Assembly (NCBI RefSeq): GCF_029323795.1
Contig: NZ_CP119758.1
Coordinates: forward strand, 2,604,001-2,668,000
Direction of reading: 5' to 3'
From: Zobellia alginiliquefaciens
GTDB taxonomy: Bacteria; Bacteroidota; Bacteroidia; Flavobacteriales; Flavobacteriaceae
Length of the DNA stretch: 64,000 nucleotides
The position numbers were made by a program, and so were the translations under genes. Positions 12,459-26,213 of this stretch are shown piece after piece. Below the pieces are notes generated by a model. It had not been told where the DNA came from, searched no databases, and saw only the letters and a list, made by a program, of their open reading frames with translations. Numbering within the stretch: the first letter of the stretch is position 1; each line of letters opens with the position of its first letter.

Positions 12459-13520
12459 ATGAAAATCCAGTTGACCAAAGTTACCTTATTTGCCTGTCTC
12501 GTTGGGGCGGTATTTCAATCTTGTAAATCTTCAAACACAGTAACCACTGTAGAAAAAACTACAGTAGAAACGACCGAGGAAAAAGTCGTAGAAAAAATAC
12601 CTGCAGAAGCATCTGCGGAAACGTCAAACGGCTATACGGAAACCGTTCCCGAAACCGATAAGAGTTTTGATATGGTGCTTATTCCCGAAGGCTCTTTTAC
12701 CATGGGAAGTCCAGAATCGGAAGCGAATAGAAAAGCGGATGAAGGCCCTCAAAAAGAGGTGGAGCTAGATGCTTTTTATATGGCAAAGCATGAGCTAACG
12801 TGGGATTTATTCGAGCTTTTCTTCAAACAGAACAAAGAACTTTTTGTGAAGCTAGATGATGACCGCGTGGTAAAAATAGATGCCATTACACGTCCTAGTC
12901 CACCTTATGAAGACCCTTCATACGGTATGGGAAAAGATGGTTTTCCTGCAGTGAGTATGTCTGCTTATTCCGCATTGGTGTATTGCAAATGGTTGAGTAC
13001 GGTAACCGGTAAATTCTACCGCCTGCCAACGGAAGCTGAGTGGGAGTACGCTGCCAAAGCGGGAACGGAAAGTGCCTATAGTTTTGGAGATGATATCGCG
13101 GCCATTGGCGACTATGCGGTATATTACAAAAACTCGGAGAGCAAGTATGCTAAGGTAGGTTCTAAAAAACCAAATCCTTGGGGTTTGTATGATATGCACG
13201 GTAACGCCGCCGAGTGGACATTAGATGAATACAAAGAAGATGCCTATGCCACTACGGATAAGAAAAACCCGTGGGTAACACCGGCCGTTATTCACCCGCG
13301 ATCTTACAGAGGTGGTTCTTGGGATGACGATGCCGATAAGCTTCGTTCGTCCGCACGAACGGCATCCAGTTTAAAACAACAGAAGCGTGATCCTCAGATT
13401 CCTAAGAGTTTTTGGTGGTTTACAGATTCCAATTATGTTGGTTTTAGATTGGTGAGCCCTAAGGTGCAACCTAGCGAAGAAGAGCAGAAACAATTCTGGC
13501 AGACGGTTCTAGATGAATAG
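12459..13520 (+). CDS. FGE-sulfatase-fold lipoprotein (SUMF1-like)
   Basis: This is a predicted lipoprotein of 353 residues. A hydrophobic signal ends in VFQSC (lipidation at C22), followed by a Thr/Glu-rich linker. From about residue 70 it has the formylglycine-generating-enzyme fold: MVLIPEGSFTMGSPESE, the RLPTEAEWEYAAKAG signature, DMHGNAAEWTLDEY and RGGSWDDD, ending in YVGFRLV. The cysteine pair that binds copper in true formylglycine-generating enzymes (after the RGGS region) is absent; aspartates and serines stand there. It is therefore probably a non-canonical member, as in gliding-associated or structural FGE-fold lipoproteins, rather than a sulfatase maturase. A YceI gene follows 34 bp downstream. 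Confidence 0.82.
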   Translation: MKIQLTKVTLFACLVGAVFQSCKSSNTVTTVEKTTVETTEEKVVEKIPAEASAETSNGYTETVPETDKSFDMVLIPEGSFTMGSPESEANRKADEGPQKEVELDAFYMAKHELTWDLFELFFKQNKELFVKLDDDRVVKIDAITRPSPPYEDPSYGMGKDGFPAVSMSAYSALVYCKWLSTVTGKFYRLPTEAEWEYAAKAGTESAYSFGDDIAAIGDYAVYYKNSESKYAKVGSKKPNPWGLYDMHGNAAEWTLDEYKEDAYATTDKKNPWVTPAVIHPRSYRGGSWDDDADKLRSSARTASSLKQQKRDPQIPKSFWWFTDSNYVGFRLVSPKVQPSEEEQKQFWQTVLDE

Positions 13521-13554
13521 CCATATTCCTAATTAACGTATTGAAACTTATAAA

Positions 13555-14082
13555 ATGAAAAAAGCAGTTTTTCTAGTACTTTTTGTGAGCTTAACTTGGT
13601 TAGGCCAGGCGCAAGAATATGCACTTTCTGACGCCAGTAAAATGACCATTTCGGGCTCATCTACCGTTCATGATTGGGAAGTAGCGGCCAACACCGTGAA
13701 TGCCACCTTAGAATACGATGGAACGGCCCCAAAGAAAATTAATTTGGAAGTGGCCGTAGAAGATATTAAAAGTGAGCGTGGTGCCGCGATGGATAAAAAA
13801 ATGCACGAAGCCCTAAAAAAGGAGGAACACCCAAATGTTACTTTTAAACTTGTGGAGGTAAAGAATACATCTATTTTGGTAGGCACTTTAAATATTGCGG
13901 GAACGGAAAAGTCCGTAGAAATTCCGGTAACTATGGAAACAGTTTCTGACGGTCTTAAAATTACGGGACAAAAGAAATTGATATTACAAGATTACGGAAT
14001 GGAGCCCCCAACGGCTATGTTCGGTCAGATTATTGTTGGTGATGAGGTAACCGTAAATTTCGATTTGACATTTTCAAAATAG
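13555..14082 (+). CDS. YceI family periplasmic protein
   Basis: This is a small periplasmic beta-barrel lipocalin-like protein, 175 residues with signal peptide (MKKAVFLVLFVSLTWLGQAQ). Family marks are MTISGSSTVHDWEV near the N-terminus, IKSERGAAMDKKMHEALKKEEHPNVTF in the middle and VNFDLTF at the end. Other YceI proteins bind isoprenoid chains such as polyprenyl or quinone lipids; the ligand here is not known. It probably forms an operon with the preceding FGE-fold lipoprotein. Confidence 0.9.
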   Translation: MKKAVFLVLFVSLTWLGQAQEYALSDASKMTISGSSTVHDWEVAANTVNATLEYDGTAPKKINLEVAVEDIKSERGAAMDKKMHEALKKEEHPNVTFKLVEVKNTSILVGTLNIAGTEKSVEIPVTMETVSDGLKITGQKKLILQDYGMEPPTAMFGQIIVGDEVTVNFDLTFSK

Positions 14083-14141
14083 TAAGTCTTTTATGGCACA
14101 CGGATTTTTAATATATACTTGACTTTAATACCTTTTTACCT

Positions 14142-15329
14142 ATGGATAGTCATCAAATAATTAAAAGTCTTGCCTTAAGATTTGCGCCTGATTTTGTAGA
14201 AATACGAAGGCACCTGCACCAAAATCCTGAACTGTCATTTCAAGAATATAATACCTGCGCTTATCTTAAAGAGCAGTTGTTATCGCTTGGAGTAACCGAT
14301 ATTGAATCGGTGGCAAGCACAGGGCTTCTGGCTACTATAAATGGAGATAAACCCGGTAAGACGGTGCTATTGCGTTCAGATATTGATGCCCTACCAATTC
14401 TTGAAGAAAATAAGATTGACTATGCTTCGGGAAACCCTGGGGTCATGCACGCCTGTGGCCATGATGCACATAGCGCTTCCCTTTTGTTGTGCTCCAAGAT
14501 TCTTTTGGAGTTAAAAGGTGATTTCTCGGGAACTGTAAAACTGTTGTTTCAACCTGCAGAAGAATTGAGTCCGGGTGGGGCAATTAAAGTCATGCAGGAG
14601 AAAGCATATACTGACTTGGGGCGCATTCCCCACATTGGGCAACACGTACGGCCAGATATGCCGGTCGGAAAAGTAGGTTTTCGCTCTGGGAAATTTATGG
14701 CTAGTATGGACGAACTTTTTTTGACCATTAAAGGGAAGGGTGGTCATGCCGCCATGCCCGAAAAATTGATTGATCCGGTATTGATATCCTCACATATTAT
14801 TGTTGCTGCGCAACAACTCGTTAGCCGTATGGCCGATCCCAAAGTACCTTCCGTACTTTCTTTTGGTAAGGTAATTGCCAACGGAGCTATAAATGTAATT
14901 CCGGACGAGGTAACCATCGAGGGTACGTTTAGGACTTTTGATGAAACCTGGCGAAAATCGGCATTGGAAAAACTGACTAAATTGGTTACGACTATGGCAG
15001 AGGCTATGGGCGGGAGCTGTGAACTTAAAATTAACCATGGGTATCCACATTTAAAAAATGAGGCGCTGTTAACGGAGGATTTACGTAGCCACGCACAAGC
15101 ATATTTGGGAGAAGAAAAGGTAGAAGAACTAGACCAATGGATGGCAGCGGAAGATTTCGCATACTACAGCCAGCAGCATCCGGCTTGTTTCTATATGCTG
15201 GGTGTGGGCAATGTTGAAAAAAATATTCAATCTGGACTTCATACCCCCACTTTTAATATTGATGAATCTGCCTTGGAAATTGGCGGCGGACTCATGGCTT
15301 GGCTTGCCATCAAAACACTTTCCGTATAA
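14142..15329 (+). CDS. M20 family metallo-amidohydrolase
   Basis: This is a zinc or manganese-dependent M20D amidohydrolase of the hippurate/IAA-amino-acid hydrolase type, 395 residues, with no signal peptide. Metal-ligand motifs are MHACGHDAHSA (about residues 102-112), LLFQPAEELSPGG and, near the C-terminus, the histidine in GLHTPTFN. A lid/dimerisation domain lies between (GKGGHAAMPEKLIDPV). It probably cleaves N-acyl or aminoacyl amides in the cytoplasm. It stands alone. Confidence 0.92.
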   Translation: MDSHQIIKSLALRFAPDFVEIRRHLHQNPELSFQEYNTCAYLKEQLLSLGVTDIESVASTGLLATINGDKPGKTVLLRSDIDALPILEENKIDYASGNPGVMHACGHDAHSASLLLCSKILLELKGDFSGTVKLLFQPAEELSPGGAIKVMQEKAYTDLGRIPHIGQHVRPDMPVGKVGFRSGKFMASMDELFLTIKGKGGHAAMPEKLIDPVLISSHIIVAAQQLVSRMADPKVPSVLSFGKVIANGAINVIPDEVTIEGTFRTFDETWRKSALEKLTKLVTTMAEAMGGSCELKINHGYPHLKNEALLTEDLRSHAQAYLGEEKVEELDQWMAAEDFAYYSQQHPACFYMLGVGNVEKNIQSGLHTPTFNIDESALEIGGGLMAWLAIKTLSV

Positions 15330-15526: not shown

Positions 15527-17860
15527 ATGAAATATAAGGTAGTTATTTTAGCAGTTTTGGCAGGTTTGATTGGATTCCTTTTTATGTACAAGAAAGGAGT
15601 ATTCCAAACGGAAACGAATGCGTATGCAGATATGAAACTTCCAGAGACGGTAGATTATAATTTTCATATCAAACCCATCCTTTCCGATAATTGTTATACC
15701 TGCCATGGTCCGGATGCCAACAAAAGAAAGGCCGGTTTACGGTTGGATATTGAGGAAGCCGCTTTTTCTGAATTGAAAGAAAAACCGGGCCACTTTCCTA
15801 TTGTATCTAAAAATTTAAAGAAAAGTGAGGTATATAAGGTTATCGTCTCCGATGATGATGACATTCTGATGCCCCCAGTAGATTCGCAATTGGCTTTGAA
15901 TTCCTATGAGAAGAAACTCATTAAAAAATGGATAGAACAGGGTGCTAAATTTGAAAAACACTGGGCGTATATCTCCCCGGAAAAAGATAAACTTCCAGTA
16001 ACCGAAAATACAGAGTGGGCGCAGAATGAAATAGATGGGTTCATTCTGGGTAAATTAGAGGATAAGGGACTTTCGCCTTCCGAAAAAGCACCCATAGAAA
16101 CACTCATACGCAGAATAAGTCTGGATTTAACAGGCTTACCTCCGCTTCCCGAACAGGTAGATAAGTTAATTGCCAAAGGCGATATTGATGAAATTATAGA
16201 CACCTTTTTAGCGTTGCCCGCTTATGGTGAGCGTATGACGCAATCTTGGTTGGATGTAGCACGTTATGCGGATTCTCACGGATATCAAGATGATAGTTAC
16301 CGTACCATGTGGCCGTGGCGTGATTGGGTGATTCATGCCTTCAACGAAAATTTACCTTATGATGAGTTTCTGACCTGGCAATTGGCGGGAGACCTTTTGC
16401 CCAATGCTACCAAAGAACAGATTCTGGCTACGGGTTTCAATCGAAATCATCCAATAACTCAAGAAGGGGGTATTGTACAAGAAGAATATCGTACCAATTA
16501 CGTTTTGGATCGCACTAATACGCTAGGAAAGGGAATTTTGGGTATTACTTTGGAATGTGCGCAGTGCCATGACCATAAATACGATGCCATTTCTCAGGCC
16601 AATTATTTTGAGATGTTCGCTTTTTTTAACCAAGTGGATGAAAAGGGGCTGCAGATGACCGCTCCTCCGGCAGCAAAACTTAGGTATTTTGCAGATCCAC
16701 CTTATATCAAAATTTCAAAAGAAGAAACGGAAAATGTGCTTTCGTTCATTAATATGGATAGTCTTCCGGAAATCAATGTGATGGTGATGAACGATTCGGC
16801 ACCAAAGACCACCTATATTTTAAATAGGGGACAATATGACCAGCCAGCAGATTCTGTGAGTCCAAAAACACCCGAAGCTATTTTTTCTTTCTCCGATAAT
16901 TTGCCTAAAAACAGATTAGGTCTTGCCCAGTGGCTTACGGATAGTAAAAACCCGCTTACGGCGCGGGTGTATGTCAATCGTATTTGGGCCATGTTATTTG
17001 GTAAGGGGTTAGTGGAAACCGCTGGGGATTTTGGTGTTCAGGGGAGCCTTCCTACACATCCCGGGTTGTTAGATTGGTTGGCGGTAGATTTTATGGAGCA
17101 CAGATGGGACACCAAGTATTTGCTTAAGAAAATAATGCAATCCGCTACCTACCAACAGAAATCGGAATTACGACCGGAAATCAAAAAAGCGGACCCTGAA
17201 AATAAATTGTTGGCACGTGCACCTCGTTTTAGAATGAGTGGCGAAATGATTAGAGATTATATTTTGACCACCAGCGGATTGCTCAATCCGGAGTTGGGTG
17301 GCCCCAGTGTAAAACCTTACCAACCTGCTGGTTTGTGGGAAGAAACGAATGCCGGTGGTAACCGGGGAATATTAACGAAATACATTCCCGATCAAGGCGA
17401 AGATTTATACCGTCGTTCTCTGTATACATTTTGGAAGCGCACATTACCACCGCCCAATATGACCATTTTTGATGCGCCCACCCGCGACTTTTCGGAAGTG
17501 AAAAGGCAAAAAACTAATACGCCCTTACAGGCATTGGTGCTGCAGAATGATGTACAGGTATTGGAAGCGGCAAGAGTTTTGGCACAACGGAGTATTAAGC
17601 AACAACCGGACAATCCCAAGTTGGTCGAAGACCTATTTAAACGCATTTTGGTCCGTAGTCCCCGTAAAGAAGAACTATTGACGTTGAATACCTATTATCA
17701 CAGTGCACTTGATCAGTATACAAACGATTTAGAGAGTGCTGAGAAATTGTTGGCCGCAGGCGATTACGAACAGATAGACGTACACCCTGCAAAAGCAGCG
17801 GCATTGATGTTGACTGCTCAAGTTATTTACAATTTAGACGAAACCATTACAAAAGAATAA
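15527..17860 (+). CDS. planctomycete-type cytochrome c (PSC) plus DUF1549/DUF1553 (PSD1) protein
   Basis: This is a 777-residue exported protein with an N-terminal hydrophobic helix (residues 4-20). A planctomycete cytochrome C domain follows with one heme-binding CYTCH (C56-H60) and the typical context ...CHGPDANKRKAGLRLD and ILMPPVDS. Then comes DUF1549 (RRISLDLTGLPPLPEQ ... RYADSHGYQDDSYRTMWPWRDW), which holds a second CXXCH (C344-H348, CAQCHDHKYDAI). DUF1553 forms the C-terminal half (VYVNRIWAMLFGKGLVETAGDFG ... TNTPLQALVLQND). This architecture is abundant in Planctomycetes, always beside DUF1501 genes; the reaction is not known. The DUF1501 gene starts 4 bp later. Confidence 0.9.
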   Translation: MKYKVVILAVLAGLIGFLFMYKKGVFQTETNAYADMKLPETVDYNFHIKPILSDNCYTCHGPDANKRKAGLRLDIEEAAFSELKEKPGHFPIVSKNLKKSEVYKVIVSDDDDILMPPVDSQLALNSYEKKLIKKWIEQGAKFEKHWAYISPEKDKLPVTENTEWAQNEIDGFILGKLEDKGLSPSEKAPIETLIRRISLDLTGLPPLPEQVDKLIAKGDIDEIIDTFLALPAYGERMTQSWLDVARYADSHGYQDDSYRTMWPWRDWVIHAFNENLPYDEFLTWQLAGDLLPNATKEQILATGFNRNHPITQEGGIVQEEYRTNYVLDRTNTLGKGILGITLECAQCHDHKYDAISQANYFEMFAFFNQVDEKGLQMTAPPAAKLRYFADPPYIKISKEETENVLSFINMDSLPEINVMVMNDSAPKTTYILNRGQYDQPADSVSPKTPEAIFSFSDNLPKNRLGLAQWLTDSKNPLTARVYVNRIWAMLFGKGLVETAGDFGVQGSLPTHPGLLDWLAVDFMEHRWDTKYLLKKIMQSATYQQKSELRPEIKKADPENKLLARAPRFRMSGEMIRDYILTTSGLLNPELGGPSVKPYQPAGLWEETNAGGNRGILTKYIPDQGEDLYRRSLYTFWKRTLPPPNMTIFDAPTRDFSEVKRQKTNTPLQALVLQNDVQVLEAARVLAQRSIKQQPDNPKLVEDLFKRILVRSPRKEELLTLNTYYHSALDQYTNDLESAEKLLAAGDYEQIDVHPAKAAALMLTAQVIYNLDETITKE

Positions 17861-17864
17861 GGCT

Positions 17865-19328
17865 ATGAAAGAGGAGAAAAAAAACAATGAAAATCCGTTA
17901 AAAGTAAACAGGCGTCATTTCTTTTCACAATTGAGCGTGGGTATTGGTTCCCTGGCCTTGGGGTCATTACTGATTCCTGATCTGTTTAAAGGCGGAGGTG
18001 CACAACCTTTGGCACAGCAACCGCTGGGTATTCCTCATTTTGCTCCCAAGGCAAAACGTGTTATCTATCTTTTTCAAGCGGGTGGCCCCTCGCAATTTGA
18101 GAGTTTTGATTACAAGCCTACATTGAAGAAACGCATGGGTGAAGATTTGCCCGAATCCATAAGAAACGGACAGCGGTTAACGGGTATGACATCCGGGCAA
18201 GATAAGTTTCCGTTGATGCCATCGGCCACTAATTTCAAACAGCATGGTCAGAGTGGGGCTTGGGTCAGTGACTATTTTCCCCATATTGCCAAAATTGCGG
18301 ATGAGATTACCGTGGTAAAAAGCATGCATACGGATGCTATCAACCATGATCCGGCCATTACCTTCTTTCAAACGGGAAGTCAGATTTCCGGGCGCCCCAG
18401 TATGGGCTCGTGGATGAGTTACGGCCTTGGTAGTGAAAATAAAAACTTGCCCTCTTTTGTGGTTTTGACCTCTAGGGGAAAGGGCAACAGTCAAGGTTTG
18501 TATTCCAAATTATGGTCTAGTGGATTTTTAGATTCCAAACACCAAGGGGTTCTGTTGCGCTCGGGTAAAGACCCTGTTCTGTATTTGAATGACCCTGACG
18601 GAATCTCAAGATCGGATAAGCGCCATTTGTTGAACGAAGTCTCTCAATTGAACAAAATGCATCATGTGGAAACAGGTGATGACGAAATAGAATCGCGTAT
18701 TGCGCAATATGAAATGGCATACCGCATGCAAATGTCCGTACCCGATGTAATGGACGTTTCAAAAGAACCGGAATCTATTGTAAAGTTGTACGGGGAGGAT
18801 TGTCAAGTGCCGGGCACCTATGCTGCAAATGCTTTACAGGCAAGAAGGTTGGCAGAAAACGGAGTTCGCTTTATACAACTGTATCACCAAGGATGGGATC
18901 AACACGGTAATTTGCCCAATGCCATGGCGGGGCAGGCGAAAGATGTAGATCAAGCTTCCGCAGCGTTAGTCATGGATTTGAAGCAAAGGGGCATGTTAGA
19001 GGATACGTTGGTAGTTTGGGGCGGTGAATTTGGAAGGACGAACTTCTGCCAAGGTAAGTTTGATCCAAAAGATTTTGGTCGTGATCACCACCCACGTGCG
19101 TTCAGTATTTGGATGGCTGGAGGAGGTATCAAGCCAGGTCTCAATTATGGTAAGACTGATGAGTTTGGATATAATATTGTTGAAAATCCGGTGCACGTGC
19201 ATGATTTTCATGCCACCTTAATGCATGCCATGGGATTGGACCACGAGCAAATGACCTATAAATATCAAGGAAGACGTTTCCGATTGACCGATGTTGCCGG
19301 GAATGTAATCAAAGACCTATTAGCATAA
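17865..19328 (+). CDS. DUF1501 protein with Tat signal
   Basis: This is a DUF1501 protein of 487 residues, related in fold to the alkaline phosphatase/sulfatase superfamily. The N-terminus has a twin-arginine motif, NRRHFFSQL (R16-R17), and a hydrophobic stretch (GIGSLALGSLLIPDLF), so it is probably exported folded by the Tat system. Conserved stretches include FQAGGPSQFESFDYKP, SMHTDAINHDPA, LYHQGWDQHGNLP and VVWGGEFGRTNF...GRDHHPRAFSIWMAGGGI, with Asp and His residues fit for a metal site. Pairing with PSC/PSD1 proteins is constant across bacteria but the substrate is unknown. The next gene follows after 3 bp. Confidence 0.9.
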   Translation: MKEEKKNNENPLKVNRRHFFSQLSVGIGSLALGSLLIPDLFKGGGAQPLAQQPLGIPHFAPKAKRVIYLFQAGGPSQFESFDYKPTLKKRMGEDLPESIRNGQRLTGMTSGQDKFPLMPSATNFKQHGQSGAWVSDYFPHIAKIADEITVVKSMHTDAINHDPAITFFQTGSQISGRPSMGSWMSYGLGSENKNLPSFVVLTSRGKGNSQGLYSKLWSSGFLDSKHQGVLLRSGKDPVLYLNDPDGISRSDKRHLLNEVSQLNKMHHVETGDDEIESRIAQYEMAYRMQMSVPDVMDVSKEPESIVKLYGEDCQVPGTYAANALQARRLAENGVRFIQLYHQGWDQHGNLPNAMAGQAKDVDQASAALVMDLKQRGMLEDTLVVWGGEFGRTNFCQGKFDPKDFGRDHHPRAFSIWMAGGGIKPGLNYGKTDEFGYNIVENPVHVHDFHATLMHAMGLDHEQMTYKYQGRRFRLTDVAGNVIKDLLA

Positions 19329-19331
19329 CCA

Positions 19332-20765
19332 ATGACCCGTATTCTGAAAAACCGTTGGGTAGACTATGCCATTTTGGGGCTATCCGTATTTCTTATTTTT
19401 TGTTTGATTTTCGATTCGTATATAGAGTTGCCAAATCTTGTGGCGTGGCTGGGGCGTTGGCATCCATTGATTCTCCATTTTCCGATTGTACTTCTGTTGA
19501 TCGCTGTTTTTTTAGGGCTAACAGGAAAAAAAGTTCCGGACGAATTACTCGTAGTTGCGGTGCTCTCGGCTTTAGTGACTGCTGTTTCCGGGTTTTTCCT
19601 AGGAAAGGAAACCCTGGTAAAAGGAGATTTGCTCTTTTGGCACCAATGGCTGGGTGGAGGTGTGGCCTTAGTAGCTTCCCTTTGGTATGTTCTGGCGAAT
19701 AGAGGATTGAGCGGTACGATGTATACGAAGGTGCTTCAAGTTGTCATGGTCGGTTTGGTGGCGGTTACGGGGCACTATGGCGGAATGGTCACCCATGGGG
19801 AGGAATTTTTAGCACTTCCCACAAACAAAAAAGAAAAAGAGATTCCAGAAAATCCTGTGATTTATGCGGATGTAGTAACCACAATTTTAGAGGATAAATG
19901 TGTGTCATGCCACAATCCCAATAAAAAGAAGGGCGAACTACTCATGACCAATTTAGAAGAGTTGCTAAAAGGAGGGGAGAGCGGTCAGACGCTTATTCCT
20001 GGGGACCCCATAAAAAGTCAGCTAATCAGTAGATTGCACCTTCCGGCGGAAGACGAAGAACATATGCCACCGGAAGGCAAAGCACCGTTGACCCAAAGTG
20101 AAATAGAGATTTTGGAAAGATGGGTGGCTTTGGGCGCTTCGGATACCCTTAGATTTGACCAATTACCGGAAAGTGAACCTTTGGTAGCACTCATAAAAGG
20201 TTTGAAAGAAGGGGATGCCGAATCAAAATGGGCCAGTCTTCCCGTTGTGGCGGATAGTACAATAAAGAATTTATCGAACGATTATCTCACCATAGAGCGA
20301 ATGGCAGCGAATTCCAACGCTTTAAGTATTGATGTGTTTTCGCCGCCCGAGTATACTGCGGCACCTATTATTGCCATGGAGCGTATTGCGGCTAACATTG
20401 TGGAACTCGATTTAAGTGGGTTGCCCATTGGTTCAGCGGAAATGGATTTCGTAGCCAGATGTCAAAATCTGGAATGGCTCGAAGTGGATAAAACTCCTGT
20501 TACCGATGCAGAGGTGGAAAAACTAACGGCATTAAAAAACCTTCGGCTTTTAAAAATTTATGAAACCCCGGTAACGGACAAAAGCATATCTGTTTTTAAG
20601 CAATTGGGAAGTTTAAAAAGTCTGTATGTATGGAAAACGGAACTGTCTAACGAAGCCCTCGAGAGCTTAAAGAGCGAAAATTCAGGCCTCGCCATTAATT
20701 ACGGAATCAATCCTGAAATTGAGACCTTTTTTGTGGCCAGTGATTCTGTTGCAATAGCCAAGTAA
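19332..20765 (+). CDS. membrane-bound c-type cytochrome with DUF2231-like membrane domain and LRR-like tail
   Basis: This is a 477-residue membrane cytochrome. About five transmembrane helices fill residues 12-150, and the WHPLILHFPIVLLL stretch (residues 43-56) is typical of DUF2231. A planctomycete-type cytochrome c domain follows with CVSCH (C190-H194) and HMPPEGKAPLTQSEIEILERWV. The last 130 residues are LRR-like (NLEWLEVDKTPVTDAEVEKL, then NLRLLKIYETPVTD). It could take electrons from the soluble partners into the membrane quinone or cytochrome pool; that role is inferred from the layout. It is tightly linked to the DUF1501 gene. Confidence 0.85.
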   Translation: MTRILKNRWVDYAILGLSVFLIFCLIFDSYIELPNLVAWLGRWHPLILHFPIVLLLIAVFLGLTGKKVPDELLVVAVLSALVTAVSGFFLGKETLVKGDLLFWHQWLGGGVALVASLWYVLANRGLSGTMYTKVLQVVMVGLVAVTGHYGGMVTHGEEFLALPTNKKEKEIPENPVIYADVVTTILEDKCVSCHNPNKKKGELLMTNLEELLKGGESGQTLIPGDPIKSQLISRLHLPAEDEEHMPPEGKAPLTQSEIEILERWVALGASDTLRFDQLPESEPLVALIKGLKEGDAESKWASLPVVADSTIKNLSNDYLTIERMAANSNALSIDVFSPPEYTAAPIIAMERIAANIVELDLSGLPIGSAEMDFVARCQNLEWLEVDKTPVTDAEVEKLTALKNLRLLKIYETPVTDKSISVFKQLGSLKSLYVWKTELSNEALESLKSENSGLAINYGINPEIETFFVASDSVAIAK

Positions 20766-20888
20766 AGGTTTGTGCGGTTAATACTTCCTGTATCAGGCCA
20801 TAAGGGGGCGTTATCAATGGAACAGCGTAGTATTCTTTAATTATTAAGTAACTTTAGAGCTATAGGTAAACTTGAAATACCTCTAGCT

Positions 20889-21503
20889 ATGAAAACAAAA
20901 TCCTATATTCTCATACTCTTTCTGTTAATGGCGGGCTTCGTTCTCGCATCTATGTATACCCCTTCGGAAAGTGATTATGTTTCTGTTCCTCCTTCAAAAA
21001 AAAATAGCGAAACTCCTTCTGATATAGCTTTTCATAAAATGATGGATGTGTTGACGCACCCGCGCTGCGTTAACTGCCACCCGAACGATCATGTGCCCAA
21101 ACAGGGGATTGAGGGCGACCCTCACGACTTTGGGATGAGTAGGGGAGAAAACAATCTCGGCTTTGAAGCCACAAAATGCACCACTTGCCATCAGACGGAA
21201 AACAATCCATATTCCGGGGTTCCTGGGGCACCACATTGGTCATTGGCTCCGCATTCTATGCAATGGCAGGGGCTGGATAGATTTGAAATTGCAGCCTCCA
21301 TGATGGATACGGGACGTAATGGCGGCCGTACGCCCGAGGATATTCTACATCATTTAACCGAAGACAAATTGGTGTTATGGGCTTTTCATCCAGGAGTTGA
21401 TGCCAAAGGGGAACCTCGTGAAGTGCCTCCGGTATCTAAAGAAGAATATATAAAAGCCGTGGAAGCATGGTTCGAAAACGGACATGTCATTCCATCCAAA
21501 TAA
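20889..21503 (+). CDS. diheme c-type cytochrome, isoquinoline 1-oxidoreductase-associated type
   Basis: This is a small exported cytochrome of 204 residues with an N-terminal signal or anchor (residues 5-21). Two CXXCH heme sites are visible: CVNCH (C60-H64) and CTTCH (C97-H101). Conserved histidines and methionines between and after them (MSRG, HSMQWQG) may serve as axial ligands. It resembles the cytochrome-like subunits annotated next to isoquinoline 1-oxidoreductases. It precedes the [2Fe-2S] and Mo subunits and would be their electron acceptor. A 123 bp gap separates it from the upstream cytochrome gene. Confidence 0.82.
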   Translation: MKTKSYILILFLLMAGFVLASMYTPSESDYVSVPPSKKNSETPSDIAFHKMMDVLTHPRCVNCHPNDHVPKQGIEGDPHDFGMSRGENNLGFEATKCTTCHQTENNPYSGVPGAPHWSLAPHSMQWQGLDRFEIAASMMDTGRNGGRTPEDILHHLTEDKLVLWAFHPGVDAKGEPREVPPVSKEEYIKAVEAWFENGHVIPSK

Positions 21504-21519
21504 AAGAAAAAAATCGACT

Positions 21520-22014
21520 ATGAAAATTTCAATGCAGGTCAATGGGCAGTCGCATGTTGTTGAACTTACGGATGAGTATACCCCTTTGCTGTGGGTTATC
21601 CGAGATATGCTGGGATTGAAAGGCACCAAGTTTGGCTGTGGAAAAGCGGCCTGTGGAGCATGTACGCTCCATGTAGATGGCGAAGCGGTTCGGTCCTGTT
21701 CCTATCCCGTAAAATTTGCGGAGGGAAAAGAAATCACGACTATTGAAGGATTGGGAGATGCCACAAATCCGCATCCCGTACAACAGGCCTGGATAGAGGA
21801 AATTGTGCCACAATGCGGCTATTGCCAGCCGGGTTTTATGATGGCTACGGCCGCATTATTGGATAAAATTCCAAATCCAACAAACCAAGATATAGATGAT
21901 AATATCATAAACGTTTGTAGATGCGGAACGTATTATAGAATGCGTAAAGCCATTCACCTTGCTGCCGAAAAGCAGAGTACTTTAAAAACAGACAGCGAAC
22001 CTACAAATTCTTAG
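21520..22014 (+). CDS. [2Fe-2S] subunit of a molybdenum hydroxylase
   Basis: This is the small iron-sulfur subunit of a xanthine-oxidase-family enzyme, 164 residues. The plant-ferredoxin cluster is held by C40, C45, C48 and C60 (GCGKAACGACTLHVDG), and the second all-helical domain by C99, C102, C133 and C135 (PQCGYCQPGFMM; NVCRCGTYYR). The ATG at 21520 is preferred: an in-frame ATG at 21484 lies inside the upstream gene and adds a non-conserved basic stretch. There is no signal peptide, so it would be exported bound to the Tat-bearing large subunit. It abuts the large-subunit gene with no gap. Confidence 0.92.
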   Translation: MKISMQVNGQSHVVELTDEYTPLLWVIRDMLGLKGTKFGCGKAACGACTLHVDGEAVRSCSYPVKFAEGKEITTIEGLGDATNPHPVQQAWIEEIVPQCGYCQPGFMMATAALLDKIPNPTNQDIDDNIINVCRCGTYYRMRKAIHLAAEKQSTLKTDSEPTNS

Positions 22015-24183
22015 ATGATGACAGAGAACGAATCCTCAGGAAATAAGAAAGTATCAAGGCGAAAGTTTTTGGTACGTGGCGGTTTAGGTACGGTGGGCGT
22101 ATTGGCCGTAGGAACCTATTTATTCAGAAATCCGATCAGAAGGGCTGTTTTGGAGAAGGTAAATTCAATGGATATTGAATATTTAGGAAGCACGGATAAT
22201 CCCATGTTATGGTTTGAGTTGGGCCCGGCCAATGAAATCATTCTACATTCACCAAAAATAGAAATGGGGCAAGGTACGTTTACGGGATTGGCACAAATGG
22301 CTGCGGATGAACTGGAAGTTCCTTTTCAGAATGTAAAAGTTGTACATGCCACTACGGATACAGGAAATATTGACCAGTTCAGTACGGGAGGGAGCACGTC
22401 TATTTCAGGACTTTGGCAACCGTTACGGGAATTGGCGGCCACTTTTCGGGAAATGCTGAAGCTTAAAGGGGCGGAGAAATTAGGGGTTCCCGTGTCCGAA
22501 GTCACCGCAGTAGACGGTATAGTTTCGGGAAATGGAAAAAGCCTTTCCTATTCGGAAATTGCAGAAGGAGTAACCAGTTGGACCATTCCGGATACTCCTG
22601 TTTTAAAAAATAGAGATACCTATCGCTTTGTTGGAAAACCTTTGCCACGCGTAGATTTAGAGGATAAGGTCTATGGCTCGCCTATGTTCGGTTTGGATGC
22701 CGAAATGCCAAATATGGTGTTTGGGGCAGTAGTTCGACCTTCAAAAATAGGAGCAAAATATATCAGTGCCACCGCGGATAAGGCCGAAAAAATGCCCGGA
22801 GTCATTAAAATTGTCAAGGAAGATGATTTTGTTGCCGTAGTTGCGGAATCGTATATCGAAGCCGAAAATGCCAAACAAGCAATTGAGGTGGTCTGGGAAA
22901 CCCCGGATAATTTACAGCAAGAGGAGATAGTGGCTATGATGACGGTGGGAAACGGAAACTCCAGTATTATTCAAAAACAGGGCGATGCTTTGGAAGGGGA
23001 TGCCGTTGTGCAGATGGAATTTAGAAGTCCCATTGGTGCACACGCCCAGATAGAACCCAATGGTGTGGTCGCATCCGTTGTAGATGAGAAGGCAACGATT
23101 ATGATTTCTACCCAGGTCATTGGTATTACGCGTAAAGAGGTAGCCTCCCGTTTGGGATGGGATGAAGAGCAGGTAAATGTGATTCCCACCTATCTAGGTG
23201 GTGGTTTTGGAAGACGACTGCATACGCCCCATGCGGTTCAGGCAGCGGTGATGTCCAAAGCTGTGGGCAAACCTGTAAAGTACGTTTTTAGTCGGGAAGA
23301 AGAATTTCAGCATGATATGTTCCGTCCGCCTACCCATCATATTGTAAAAGGAAGTCTGAACGAGGAGGGTTTATTAAGCGGACTCGAACATCATTTTGTG
23401 AGTGGGGATGTGGGTAATAATTCGGCATTGATACCTAATGTGGTACCCACTATTTTGGGTGCGGATGTGGGAGCTATTAGAGGTGCATTTATTCAGTATA
23501 CAGCCGTACCCAATCATAGGTCTGTGTATTGGCATGTAGATTTGCCTTTTGCTACCAGTTGGTGGCGTAGTTTAGGTTTATTGGCCAATACCTTTGCCAT
23601 AGAAAGTTTTGTAGATGAGATGGCGCTGAAAGCAGAAAAGAATGCCATAGAATTCCGTTTGGCACATATTGGCGATGATGAAGCAGGGAAACGCTTAAAA
23701 AATGTAATCCGTACCGCAGGTGAGAAATCGGGATATTCCGAAGAAATCAAAGCGAATAGAGCTATGGGATTTGCAGCCTCGGTAGATGCGGGCACACCTT
23801 GTGCGCATGTGGTTGAGGTTTCCGTAACGGATAACGAAATAAAAGTCCATAAAGTTACGGTAGTTTTAGACCCTGGCCTTGCTGTAAACCCGGATCAGGT
23901 TAGGGCGCAATGCGAAGGCTGCGTTATTATGGGCATGAGTGCGGTACTGTTCGAGCAAATGAAAGTGGTGGACGGCTCTTTGACCCCTACGATTTACGGA
24001 CCCTATGAAATGGCATTAATGAAACATGCGCCCAAAGAAATAGAAGTGGTATTGCTTCAAGGCAAAGATACACCGGGCCCTGTGGGCGAACCGCCATTGG
24101 GACCCATTGGTGCGGCGATTGCCAATGCCGTAAAAAGACTAACGGGCAAACGTCTGCAATCCATGCCCCTAAAATTGACATAA
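22015..24183 (+). CDS. molybdopterin-binding hydroxylase large subunit (IorB-like, Tat-exported)
   Basis: This is the catalytic molybdenum-cofactor subunit of a xanthine dehydrogenase-family hydroxylase, 722 residues, closest in layout to isoquinoline 1-oxidoreductase beta or aldehyde oxidoreductase. The N-terminus has a Tat motif, SRRKFLVRGG (R15-R16), and a hydrophobic helix, so the enzyme should act in the periplasm. Moco-contact motifs are PKIEMGQGTFTGLAQM, YLGGGFGRRLHTPHAVQAA and, near the C-terminus, GEPPLGPIGAAIANAV, whose glutamate is the usual catalytic base. It inserts a water-derived oxygen into an N-heterocycle or aldehyde and passes electrons to the [2Fe-2S] subunit. The substrate is unknown. 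A strong terminator follows. Confidence 0.92.
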   Translation: MMTENESSGNKKVSRRKFLVRGGLGTVGVLAVGTYLFRNPIRRAVLEKVNSMDIEYLGSTDNPMLWFELGPANEIILHSPKIEMGQGTFTGLAQMAADELEVPFQNVKVVHATTDTGNIDQFSTGGSTSISGLWQPLRELAATFREMLKLKGAEKLGVPVSEVTAVDGIVSGNGKSLSYSEIAEGVTSWTIPDTPVLKNRDTYRFVGKPLPRVDLEDKVYGSPMFGLDAEMPNMVFGAVVRPSKIGAKYISATADKAEKMPGVIKIVKEDDFVAVVAESYIEAENAKQAIEVVWETPDNLQQEEIVAMMTVGNGNSSIIQKQGDALEGDAVVQMEFRSPIGAHAQIEPNGVVASVVDEKATIMISTQVIGITRKEVASRLGWDEEQVNVIPTYLGGGFGRRLHTPHAVQAAVMSKAVGKPVKYVFSREEEFQHDMFRPPTHHIVKGSLNEEGLLSGLEHHFVSGDVGNNSALIPNVVPTILGADVGAIRGAFIQYTAVPNHRSVYWHVDLPFATSWWRSLGLLANTFAIESFVDEMALKAEKNAIEFRLAHIGDDEAGKRLKNVIRTAGEKSGYSEEIKANRAMGFAASVDAGTPCAHVVEVSVTDNEIKVHKVTVVLDPGLAVNPDQVRAQCEGCVIMGMSAVLFEQMKVVDGSLTPTIYGPYEMALMKHAPKEIEVVLLQGKDTPGPVGEPPLGPIGAAIANAVKRLTGKRLQSMPLKLT

Positions 24184-24194
24184 ATTAAAACCTA

Positions 24195-24226
24195 AAAAAG
24201 GCTTCCAGTTGGTTGGAAGCCTTTTT
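24195..24226 (+). terminator. rho-independent terminator of the cytochrome/Mo cluster
   Basis: A perfect 13 bp stem, AAAAAGGCTTCCA (24195-24207) with TGGAAGCCTTTTT (24214-24226), closes a 6 nt loop. It starts 11 bp after the Mo-subunit stop codon. The A and T runs on both sides make it usable in either direction. Confidence 0.92.
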
Positions 24227-24264
24227 AAACTTTAGTGCTTCTCTTGTTCTTTAGCTTTTTCCTA

Positions 24265-24547
24265 GATCACAAGACCGGTGGTCTTGCATCTTTCCATAAA
24301 ACAAAGAACCACGCCGAAATGGGCGTGGTTTCTAACTTAAAGTGATGGCACTAGGATTACCTTTCGGTGTTCCTAGGCGGCTCAATGTTGCAAATTGTAA
24401 ACCACGAGCTAGCGCTCTGGTTCTTCATCTTATTCCAAGATCACAAGACCGGTGGTCTTGCATCTTTCCATAAAACAAAGAACCACGCCGAAATGGGCGT
24501 GGTTTCTTAATTTAAAGTGATGGCACTAGGATTCGAACCTAGGACCG
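24265..24547 (-). repeat. left copy of the tRNA-Arg-associated repeat block (degenerate tRNA 3' ends plus terminators)
   Basis: This block is almost identical to 25886-26169. It holds two sub-units of about 69 bp (24265-24333 and 24439-24507), each with the small stem AAGACC/GGTCTT and the terminator hairpin AACCACGCC/GGCGTGGTT. Each sub-unit is followed by a piece of the tRNA-Arg 3' end: 16 nt at 24343-24358 and 30 nt at 24518-24547, the latter equal to tRNA positions from the T-arm to the discriminator base. After 24547 the match stops abruptly. The block explains the gene-free stretch before the Fic gene. Confidence 0.85.
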
Positions 24548-24568
24548 TCATTTAAGTTTTAAAAATCA

Positions 24569-25687
24569 TCAATTTTCACTCAATTGAAGATAGTAGCGGG
24601 TACCTTTCAACGCTCCTGTTTTATACAGGGCACCTATATCGATTAAGTGTTTTAAATCCCTTGTAGCTGTGGAAGCAGAGGTTCCGGCAATGCGGGTGTA
24701 GTTGTCGGCACTTAAGCCTCCTTTGAATCCCGTATGACCCTCTTCAAAAACACGACGTATTACTTTAAGTTGCCGTTTATTCATTTGGTTTGAAAAGCGG
24801 TCAAAATAATGTGCTTTTTGAATCAAAAAGTCGATAACTTTTAAGGTGTTCTCTTGGGCATCTAAAATGGTTTGACCAAAATAAACAAGCCAATCCGTCA
24901 ACTCGCATTTGCGATTATGTTTTTCTAAAGTCCCATAATATTCTTTTTTCTTCGCCTCTATCATTTGGGACAGAGAAATTAAAGCAGGACGTTGTATACT
25001 TTGAGAAATTGATTTTTCAGCTATGGCACGTCCAATGCGGCCATTACCATCTTCAAAAGGGTGGATGGTCACAAAATAAAAATGAGCAATACCAGCTTTT
25101 GCTAAAGGCGATATTGATTTGTTGTCTATAGTATGAACCGTATTGAACCATATAACAAATTCATCCATTTCAGAGCGTATTACTTTGGATGGAGGCGCCT
25201 CAAAATGAACGGTGGGCCTATCTAGTCGCCCTGAGACAATCTGCATAGGGTCCTCATGGGTGCGGTATCGTCCTGTATCTACCAAATCCCTTCTACCACT
25301 GGTTAACATGTTGTGCCATTGGAACATTTGTTTATGGGACAGTGGCTGATTATAGGTTTTATATAGGTCGACCATCATTTCAGAAACCCCAAATTCGGCA
25401 GGGGGTAATTTTCGTTTGGTAGACTCAAGCCCCAAATTCTTTTTGATAGATTCCTGTATACTAGCTATATTGAGAAACTCGCCTTCAATTTCAGAAGTTT
25501 TTAAGGCTTCATCGGAAAGTATTTGAATTAAAAGCTGGTCTTTTTCTTCTTGTTTTATATGTTTAAAAGCCCCTAGGGCTACCCCATTTTTTTGTAAAAA
25601 ATTGCGTTCTAACGCTTCAATAGCCTCTTTTTTAAAGGTAAAATGAGGCCATTCTTTTGTTTGCCAATTCCATTTTTGATGTCCCAT
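24569..25687 (-). CDS. Fic family protein (class II AMPylase) with C-terminal winged helix
   Basis: This is a Fic-domain enzyme of 372 residues that probably transfers AMP from ATP to a protein side chain. An N-terminal helical region (DUF4172-like, starting KWNWQTKEWP) carries the autoinhibitory motif TSEIEG (T64-G69), matching (S/T)xxxE(G/N). This places it in class II, where the motif blocks ATP on the same chain. The catalytic motif HPFEDGNGRIGR (H209-R220) is complete. The C-terminal 80 residues look like a winged-helix DNA-binding domain (GLSADNYTRIAGTSASTATRDLKHL), which suggests autoregulation. It is the only gene between two copies of the tRNA-linked repeat block, so it was probably acquired there. 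No toxin-antitoxin partner gene is visible. Confidence 0.93.
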   Translation of the reverse strand: MGHQKWNWQTKEWPHFTFKKEAIEALERNFLQKNGVALGAFKHIKQEEKDQLLIQILSDEALKTSEIEGEFLNIASIQESIKKNLGLESTKRKLPPAEFGVSEMMVDLYKTYNQPLSHKQMFQWHNMLTSGRRDLVDTGRYRTHEDPMQIVSGRLDRPTVHFEAPPSKVIRSEMDEFVIWFNTVHTIDNKSISPLAKAGIAHFYFVTIHPFEDGNGRIGRAIAEKSISQSIQRPALISLSQMIEAKKKEYYGTLEKHNRKCELTDWLVYFGQTILDAQENTLKVIDFLIQKAHYFDRFSNQMNKRQLKVIRRVFEEGHTGFKGGLSADNYTRIAGTSASTATRDLKHLIDIGALYKTGALKGTRYYLQLSEN

Positions 25688-25740
25688 GAGCTATAACTTT
25701 GCTTTTTATAGCTCAAATTTAGTCAAATTTTGAGCTATAT
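25688..25740 (-). promoter_or_regulatory. Fic promoter and operator-like inverted repeats
   Basis: Read on the minus strand, TAAATTTG (25714-25721) fits the -7 consensus. Arms of GAGCTATA occur three times: 25688-25696 and 25706-25714 form a perfect 9 bp inverted repeat directly before the ATG, and a third arm lies at 25732-25740. This is suited to repression by the Fic protein's own winged helix, or to a leader hairpin. Motif evidence only. Confidence 0.45.
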
Positions 25741-25885
25741 ATTAGGTATTTACTGCTCAAATATAGATACTATATTGGATTATAGTGTTTTAGGGTTCGT
25801 AATTTTGATTTAACCGCTGATTTTTCACTTTACAGCTATTTAATGAGTTCTTATAGTCTTTCTCCACAACCTTAAGGCTTTATCC

Positions 25886-26139
25886 ATCACAAGACTGCTG
25901 GTCTTGCAGCTTTCCATAAAACAAAGAACCACGCCGAAATGGGCGTGGTTTCTAACTTAAAGTGATATGGCACTAGGATTACCTTTCGGTATTCCTAGGC
26001 GGCTCAATGTTGCAAATTGCAAACCACGAGCTAGCGCTCTGGTTCTTCGTCTTATTCCAAGATCACAAGACCGGTGTTCTTGCACCTTTCCATAAAACAA
26101 AGAACCACGCCGAAATGGGCGTGGTTTCTTAATTTAAAG

Positions 26140-26169
<30 letters not shown>
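25886..26169 (-). repeat. right copy of the tRNA-Arg-associated repeat block
   Basis: This is the second copy of the block at 24265-24547, lying about 1.62 kb further on. It differs by a few substitutions and a 2 bp insertion (GATATGG for GATGG). Again there are two sub-units with terminator hairpins, one 3'-end relic of the tRNA at 25963-25980, and finally the functional tRNA 3' end at 26140-26169. Between 25741 and 25885 only AT-rich DNA with no gene is seen. Confidence 0.85.
26103..26126 (-). terminator. terminator of tRNA-Arg
   Basis: The perfect 9 bp stem AACCACGCC/GGCGTGGTT has a 6 nt loop and, on the minus strand, is followed by CTTTGTTTT. It lies 13 bp downstream of the tRNA 3' end. 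The same hairpin occurs three more times in the flanking repeat blocks. Confidence 0.75.

Positions 26170-26213
<44 letters not shown>

Follow-up and report, generated by a model that had tools for sequence, protein, structure and literature searches.

We analysed a stretch of 64,000 nucleotides from Zobellia alginiliquefaciens (GCF_029323795.1, NZ_CP119758.1, positions 2,604,001 to 2,668,000 of the forward strand), which is referred to below as the window. Six open reading frames follow one another on its + strand, in the order and at the positions reported by a first-pass annotation of the same DNA, and the 123-base gap at 20766–20888 and the stem-loop at 24195–24226 that was said to close the run are both real. 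Genes 1–3 (15527–20765) are called module A, or the triad, and genes 4–6 (20889–24183) module B, or the trio. The features are listed here with the evidence for each.

15527–17860, + strand: module A gene 1, a PSCyt1–PSCyt2(DUF1549)–PSD1(DUF1553) protein with two CXXCH motifs and an N-terminal hydrophobic segment (Pfam, motifs, hydrophobicity)
17865–19328, + strand: module A gene 2, a Tat-type DUF1501 protein with NRRHFF (Pfam E 9.5e-158; RRxF in 20/20 homologs)
19332–20765, + strand: module A gene 3, a membrane protein with hydrophobic N-terminal segments and one PSCyt1 heme site (Pfam, motifs, hydrophobicity)
20830–20888, + strand: conserved leader 5' of module B, containing a TAnnTTT-type element at 20849–20856 (alignment of 7 intergenic stretches)
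20889–21503, + strand: module B gene 1, a short diheme c-type cytochrome with an N-terminal hydrophobic segment (motifs, hydrophobicity; no Pfam or NCBIfam match at cut-off)
21520–22014 (ORF from 21484), + strand: module B gene 2, a two-[2Fe-2S] subunit with 8 conserved cysteines (Pfam, PDB match, motifs)
22015–24183, + strand: module B gene 3, a Tat-type, IorB-like molybdopterin subunit in which Glu692 of the GEPP motif is kept (Pfam, PDB match, motifs)
24195–24226, + strand: terminator-like stem-loop 3' of module B, with an A run before it and a T run after it (listed on the − strand; near-symmetric, with the T run on +)

Pfam searches detected PSCyt1, PSCyt2 and PSD1 in gene 1, DUF1501 in gene 2, PSCyt1 in gene 3, Fer2 and Fer2_2 in gene 5, and MoCoBD_1 and MoCoBD_2 in gene 6; gene 4 had no match at E 0.001. 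Against NCBIfam, no family was found for genes 1–4, and genes 5 and 6 gave only sub-cut-off matches to xanthine/aldehyde/CO dehydrogenase and related models. The motifs claimed previously were confirmed, with 2, 0, 1, 2, 0 and 0 CXXCH motifs in genes 1–6, 8 cysteines in the FeS protein, and Tat motifs on both the Mo subunit (SRRKFL) and the DUF1501 protein. Since these motifs are kept across the homolog rows, they are not chance occurrences.

In module A, both CXXCH motifs of gene 1 and the single CXXCH of gene 3 were kept in 21/21 homolog rows, counting some genomes twice. Five histidines of gene 3 (H44, H49, H104, H148 and H155) are near-invariant and all lie within the first 160 residues, two of them inside hydrophobic segments; heme b binding by these residues is conceivable, as is contact with the quinone pool. 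The C-terminus of gene 3 gave a weak, sub-cut-off match of the leucine-rich-repeat type. A PDB sequence search with the PSD1 and DUF1501 proteins returned no relatives at E up to 0.01, and a fold prediction for the DUF1501 protein, made from four close rows only, was unusable (pLDDT 31). We take DUF1501 to be a member of the alkaline-phosphatase superfamily. The genome itself contains at least 5 DUF1501 matches at E 1e-20, and module A is therefore one of several such modules.

The three genes of the triad were together in 14/14 orthologous loci, counting the window, with the PSD1 and DUF1501 genes side by side in every one of them and a single extra ORF between genes 2 and 3 in one locus (L107). 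Upstream of the triad we found an FGE-like gene in 10/14 loci, a YceI gene in 10/14 and an M20 amidohydrolase gene in 6/14; an SDR gene lay 3' of it in 5/14, two of which were run against Pfam. Across genera, the triad is accompanied more steadily by these FGE-like, YceI and M20 genes (12459–15329 in the window) than by the Mo module.

We presume that DUF1501 is the family of the conserved neighbour gene of planctomycete PSCyt/PSD1 proteins. As far as the available portions of two papers go, PSCyt2/PSD1 proteins encoded beside a conserved neighbour, an arrangement that the window shares, are reported as having an unknown function (PMC5615132, PMC2754498). These portions concern Verrucomicrobia and Planctomycetes, whereas the set in the window belongs to Bacteroidota and continues with a membrane PSCyt1 protein. 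The accessible text of PMC5615132 states that nothing is known of the functions of PSCyt/PSD proteins and suggests carbohydrate metabolism. Our literature search yielded no function for PSD1/PSCyt proteins in the excerpts obtained, and no paper naming DUF1501 and DUF1553 together.

In module B, all 8 cysteines of the FeS subunit are near-invariant (at least 97% of 103 rows, some genomes appearing twice). Its gene more likely starts at the ATG at 21520 than at 21484. With this start, the protein has 164 aa (the ORFs of its homologs have a median of 163 aa) and the gene no longer overlaps the diheme gene. The FeS protein has no hydrophobic signal of its own. The Mo subunit carries the RRxF motif in 88/91 homologs, and E692 of the GEPP motif, a glutamate that we take to be the catalytic-type residue, is kept in at least 97% of 92 rows. 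Both subunits find their best PDB relatives in one enzyme, an aldehyde dehydrogenase (8gy3) that is presumably from an acetic acid bacterium: its large subunit (chain C) matches the Mo subunit with E 3.1e-67, and its small subunit (chain B) matches the FeS subunit with E 5.6e-47. A second FeS–Mo pair is present in the same genome at C1:4650394–4652550, with a Mo subunit of 33% identity and a third gene that appears to be XdhC-like; of the ORFs in that 5.2-kb stretch that reach 120 aa, none is a diheme gene.

Judged from its sequence, the diheme protein is the unusual part of module B. It is 204 aa long, its gene comes first in the trio, and both CXXCH motifs were kept in 94/94 homolog rows (some genomes twice). 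The window protein itself reaches no family model cut-off in Pfam or NCBIfam, and its Pfam matches are all sub-cut-off. Over 58 homologs, weak Pfam matches to MtrC/MtrF, c554 and paired-CXXCH families were obtained (best E 4.8e-05), together with a weak match to NCBIfam ExtM in 35/58 (best E 4.3e-05). Neither the protein nor the 58-row profile matched any PDB chain at E up to 1. A structure model of modest confidence (pLDDT 73.4, with its minimum near the second heme site) found no PDB fold with E <= 0.001.

The diheme gene was absent from the locus of the Mo homolog in 9/92 rows, one of which (L118) starts near a contig end, and a family-wide search found no diheme gene elsewhere in the genomes of these nine. 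The diheme protein is therefore not the only possible electron acceptor. Because the nine are scattered among diheme-bearing rows in a tree of 45 rows, the subunit has probably been lost or replaced more than once. At two further loci (L130 8209–11091 and L131 6524–9447), the diheme gene adjoins a distant Mo subunit of about 30% identity, and no FeS ORF of 100 aa or more lies beside them; the diheme family may thus also serve other arrangements.

To see how module B is organised elsewhere, we used a diheme profile search, which recovered at least 575 relatives, and examined the best 80 loci. Among these best 80, the diheme, FeS and Mo genes occurred in this order on the same strand in 79, and the one remaining locus (L174) ends with its contig. 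The FeS match began no more than 65 bases from the diheme match in 69 of the 79 and at 90 to 914 bases in the other ten. The earlier proposal that the Moco, [2Fe-2S] and diheme c components form one conserved unit, with an IorB-like Mo enzyme beside a cytochrome, is thus supported, and with at least 575 diheme relatives the combination of an IorAB-like enzyme and a cytochrome c is a common design in Bacteroidota.

XdhC-like and MobA-like genes were found 3' of the trio in 12 of the best 80 loci each; TetR genes were shared neighbours in 15 and AraC genes in 12, with one example of each kind annotated. Other shared neighbours occurred in at most 24 of these 80 loci and mainly reflected Maribacter-type synteny (DDAH-like, citrate synthase and glycosyltransferase genes). 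The neighbouring genes in this set gave no substrate. Genes for PSD1, DUF1501 and the membrane cytochrome lay within the flanks (up to 9 kb) of only 3 of the best 80 loci, all of them from Zobellia (L162, L163 and L165), and were absent from the flanks of the Z. barbeyronii locus (L164). In 70 of the 80 loci, the sequence reached 6 kb or more upstream of the diheme gene; the contigs of the other ten are too short for a sure display of the triad.

We then used four proteins of the locus (diheme c, membrane cytochrome, Mo subunit and DUF1501) as queries against 199 family genomes, calling a triad ortholog where the membrane cytochrome reached at least 49% identity and DUF1501 at least 84%, and a Mo ortholog at 57% or more. 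Triad orthologs were present in 14/199 genomes, Mo-subunit orthologs in 15/199 (a sixteenth Mo subunit reached 40%) and the diheme c in 10/199. Five genomes had both a triad and a Mo ortholog, and only in the genome of the window were the two adjacent. They lay about 82 kb and about 146 kb apart on one contig in two genomes (G018 and G172) and on different contigs in the other two (G001 and G050). Among the mapped family loci, the 13 other triad stretches (14–16 kb) all lacked a Mo module, and no triad was present in the 18 Mo or diheme stretches (6–19 kb). The five genomes with both exceeded the 1.06 expected when kinship is ignored (one-sided Fisher p = 0.0016), as did the three outside the genus of the window (0.79 expected, p = 0.035, kinship again ignored). 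Triad and diheme c co-occurred without significant excess on the same basis (2 versus 0.70 expected, p = 0.15).

The genus Zobellia, represented by nine genomes, provided a closer view. The diheme c was found in 7/9 genomes and a full Mo subunit at 71% identity or more in 8/9, and orthologs of the membrane cytochrome (at least 72%), DUF1501 (at least 93%) and PSD1 (at least 84%) shared one set of seven genomes. All six genes were adjacent in 5/9 (G000, G205, G203, G204 and G199). In two others (G200 and G202; loci L144 and L141), the FGE-like, YceI and M20 genes are followed directly by the diheme–FeS–Mo trio, and no ortholog of PSD1, DUF1501 or the membrane cytochrome was found genome-wide at the genus thresholds; these genomes contained only distant DUF1501 copies (at most 64%) and, in G200, a PSD1 copy (52%). 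The last two genomes have the triad: in G001 it is on a different contig from the FeS–Mo pair and the diheme gene is absent, and in G201 (5.52 Mb) the only trace of the Mo subunit is a 154-aa C-terminal piece elsewhere (L156 1495–1959).

These distributions bear on the proposal of the first-pass annotation that the six genes form a single periplasmic chain, in which the membrane cytochrome of the triad is the terminal carrier and the PSD1/DUF1501 pair treats the substrate or product. The shared strand, the close packing, the adjacency in 5/9 genus genomes and the lack of a terminator-like site between the halves would fit such a chain. However, a neighbourhood survey had been named beforehand as the test of this idea, and outside the genus conservation stopped at 20765 in the loci examined. 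The halves were apart in 4/5 family genomes having both, the triad was near only 3 of the best 80 diheme loci (of at least 575), module B was intact in two genomes without any triad ortholog, and it has a separate conserved leader; within the genus, each half also occurs alone. The six-gene system was thus not borne out by the family, genus and 80-locus surveys, and we regard it as extremely improbable.

Instead, we consider it likely that the locus consists of two independent modules that became neighbours within Zobellia: module A, which joins PSD1, DUF1501 and the membrane cytochrome and has a history and neighbours of its own, and module B, a periplasmic Mo dehydrogenase that oxidises an aldehyde or aldose. 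Because M20 adjoins the triad in other genera too (L103, L104, L106 and L108), the simplest order of events would be that G200 and G202 lost the triad once the modules had met; the Mo tree is compatible with either one event or two for these genomes. A false six-gene pathway is thereby replaced by two testable units, and the natural occurrence, within one genus, of an intact module B both with and without the triad offers a clean comparison for the role of either module.

The region between the modules is consistent with separate transcription of module B. In an intergenic alignment, about 60 bases before the diheme gene were alike in 7/7 genomes, two of which lack the triad. Since this leader is conserved with or without the triad, it points to a promoter belonging to module B, and the TAnnTTT-type element within it is, we assume, of the Bacteroidota promoter type. 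No terminator-like site was listed in the 123-base gap, so read-through from module A is possible. This leaves room for a link limited to the genus, in which the modules are co-transcribed or metabolically joined in Zobellia, with the triad releasing an aldehyde or aldose for module B, and each works alone elsewhere. Besides the gap, the adjacency in 5/9 genus genomes and the excess of triad–Mo co-occurrence in the family would agree with it, but 2/7 trio-bearing genus genomes have an intact trio without the triad, and the adjacency may be inherited from one event. A functional link of the two modules inside Zobellia is possible, and we judge this particular version of it unlikely.

Returning to module B as an independent enzyme, we compared it with known systems. 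It shows three features of the IorAB-like group, namely a Tat-motif MoCo subunit, a two-[2Fe-2S] subunit with 8 cysteines and a clustered c-type cytochrome. According to the available part of PMC6365646, deoxyribose is oxidised in P. simiae with an IorA-like protein and a Tat-motif IorB-like protein encoded in a cluster with a cytochrome c gene, and a related cluster of P. putida (PP_3621–PP_3623) is a proposed vanillin dehydrogenase. PaoEFG, as described in the text available of PMC12064950, has the same three kinds of subunit and oxidises HMF in the periplasm. The window shares with the Pseudomonas dehydrogenases, as excerpted there, the combination of a two-cluster FeS subunit, a Mo subunit and a c-type cytochrome in one cluster, and with the P. 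simiae enzyme the Tat motif on the Mo subunit; it differs in that its cytochrome gene comes first and encodes the 204-aa diheme protein. It resembles the membrane-bound aldehyde dehydrogenases of acetic acid bacteria in that 8gy3 is the closest solved homolog of the Mo and FeS subunits. In the portion obtained of PMC9171043, however, that enzyme is described with an MCD cofactor, [2Fe-2S] clusters and three hemes c, the latter in the usual cytochrome subunit, compared with two in the diheme protein of the window. The best reading of these sequence comparisons is that module B belongs to the known kind of IorAB-like enzyme with a cytochrome c, represented by PaoEFG and the deoxyribose and vanillin dehydrogenases, and appears to carry a variant cytochrome. 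A literature search found no paper joining isoquinoline 1-oxidoreductase, cytochrome c and Bacteroidetes.

Module B was read as a periplasmic aldehyde or aldose dehydrogenase because of its 8gy3 relatives, the published IorAB-like clusters and the XdhC-like and MobA-like neighbours. The Tat-exported Mo subunit would oxidise an aldehyde or aldose outside the inner membrane, and the electrons would reach the respiratory chain by way of the two [2Fe-2S] clusters in the FeS subunit and then the diheme c anchored in the membrane. The FeS subunit, having no hydrophobic signal, would presumably be carried out together with the Mo subunit. Hydroxylation of an N-heterocycle of the isoquinoline or purine type is an unlikely alternative. 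It would be favoured by NCBIfam, where the Mo subunit has its best partial matches in the xanthine dehydrogenase subunits XdhA (178.5 bits; cut-off 780) and PRK09970, both far below cut-off. Among solved structures, however, both subunits have their closest relatives in an aldehyde dehydrogenase. Moreover, in the available text of PMC6365646, the isoquinoline iorAB genes have no nearby cytochrome gene, whereas the aldehyde/aldose clusters have one.

If the two modules do cooperate in the six-gene Zobellia genomes, the triad might make or present an aldehyde-type product for module B, and both might feed electrons to the membrane protein of the triad, whose histidines possibly bind heme b. We consider this scheme very unlikely; if it held, it would be a first functional assignment of a PSD1/DUF1501 module.

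Downstream of the trio, the region 24241–26213 of the window contains a Fic/DUF4172 gene (24569–25687, − strand) between direct repeats (101 nt, four copies; 203 nt, two copies at 98%). Acquisition of module B through the downstream tRNA-Arg site was considered and rejected, as none of the direct repeats found there pairs the two sides of module B. The 3' portion of the tRNA-Arg gene (26139–26213) is contained in the repeats around the Fic gene, and the Fic gene is absent from this site in one relative (L139) and present in another (L142). The Fic/DUF4172 region has the look of a small tRNA-associated islet.
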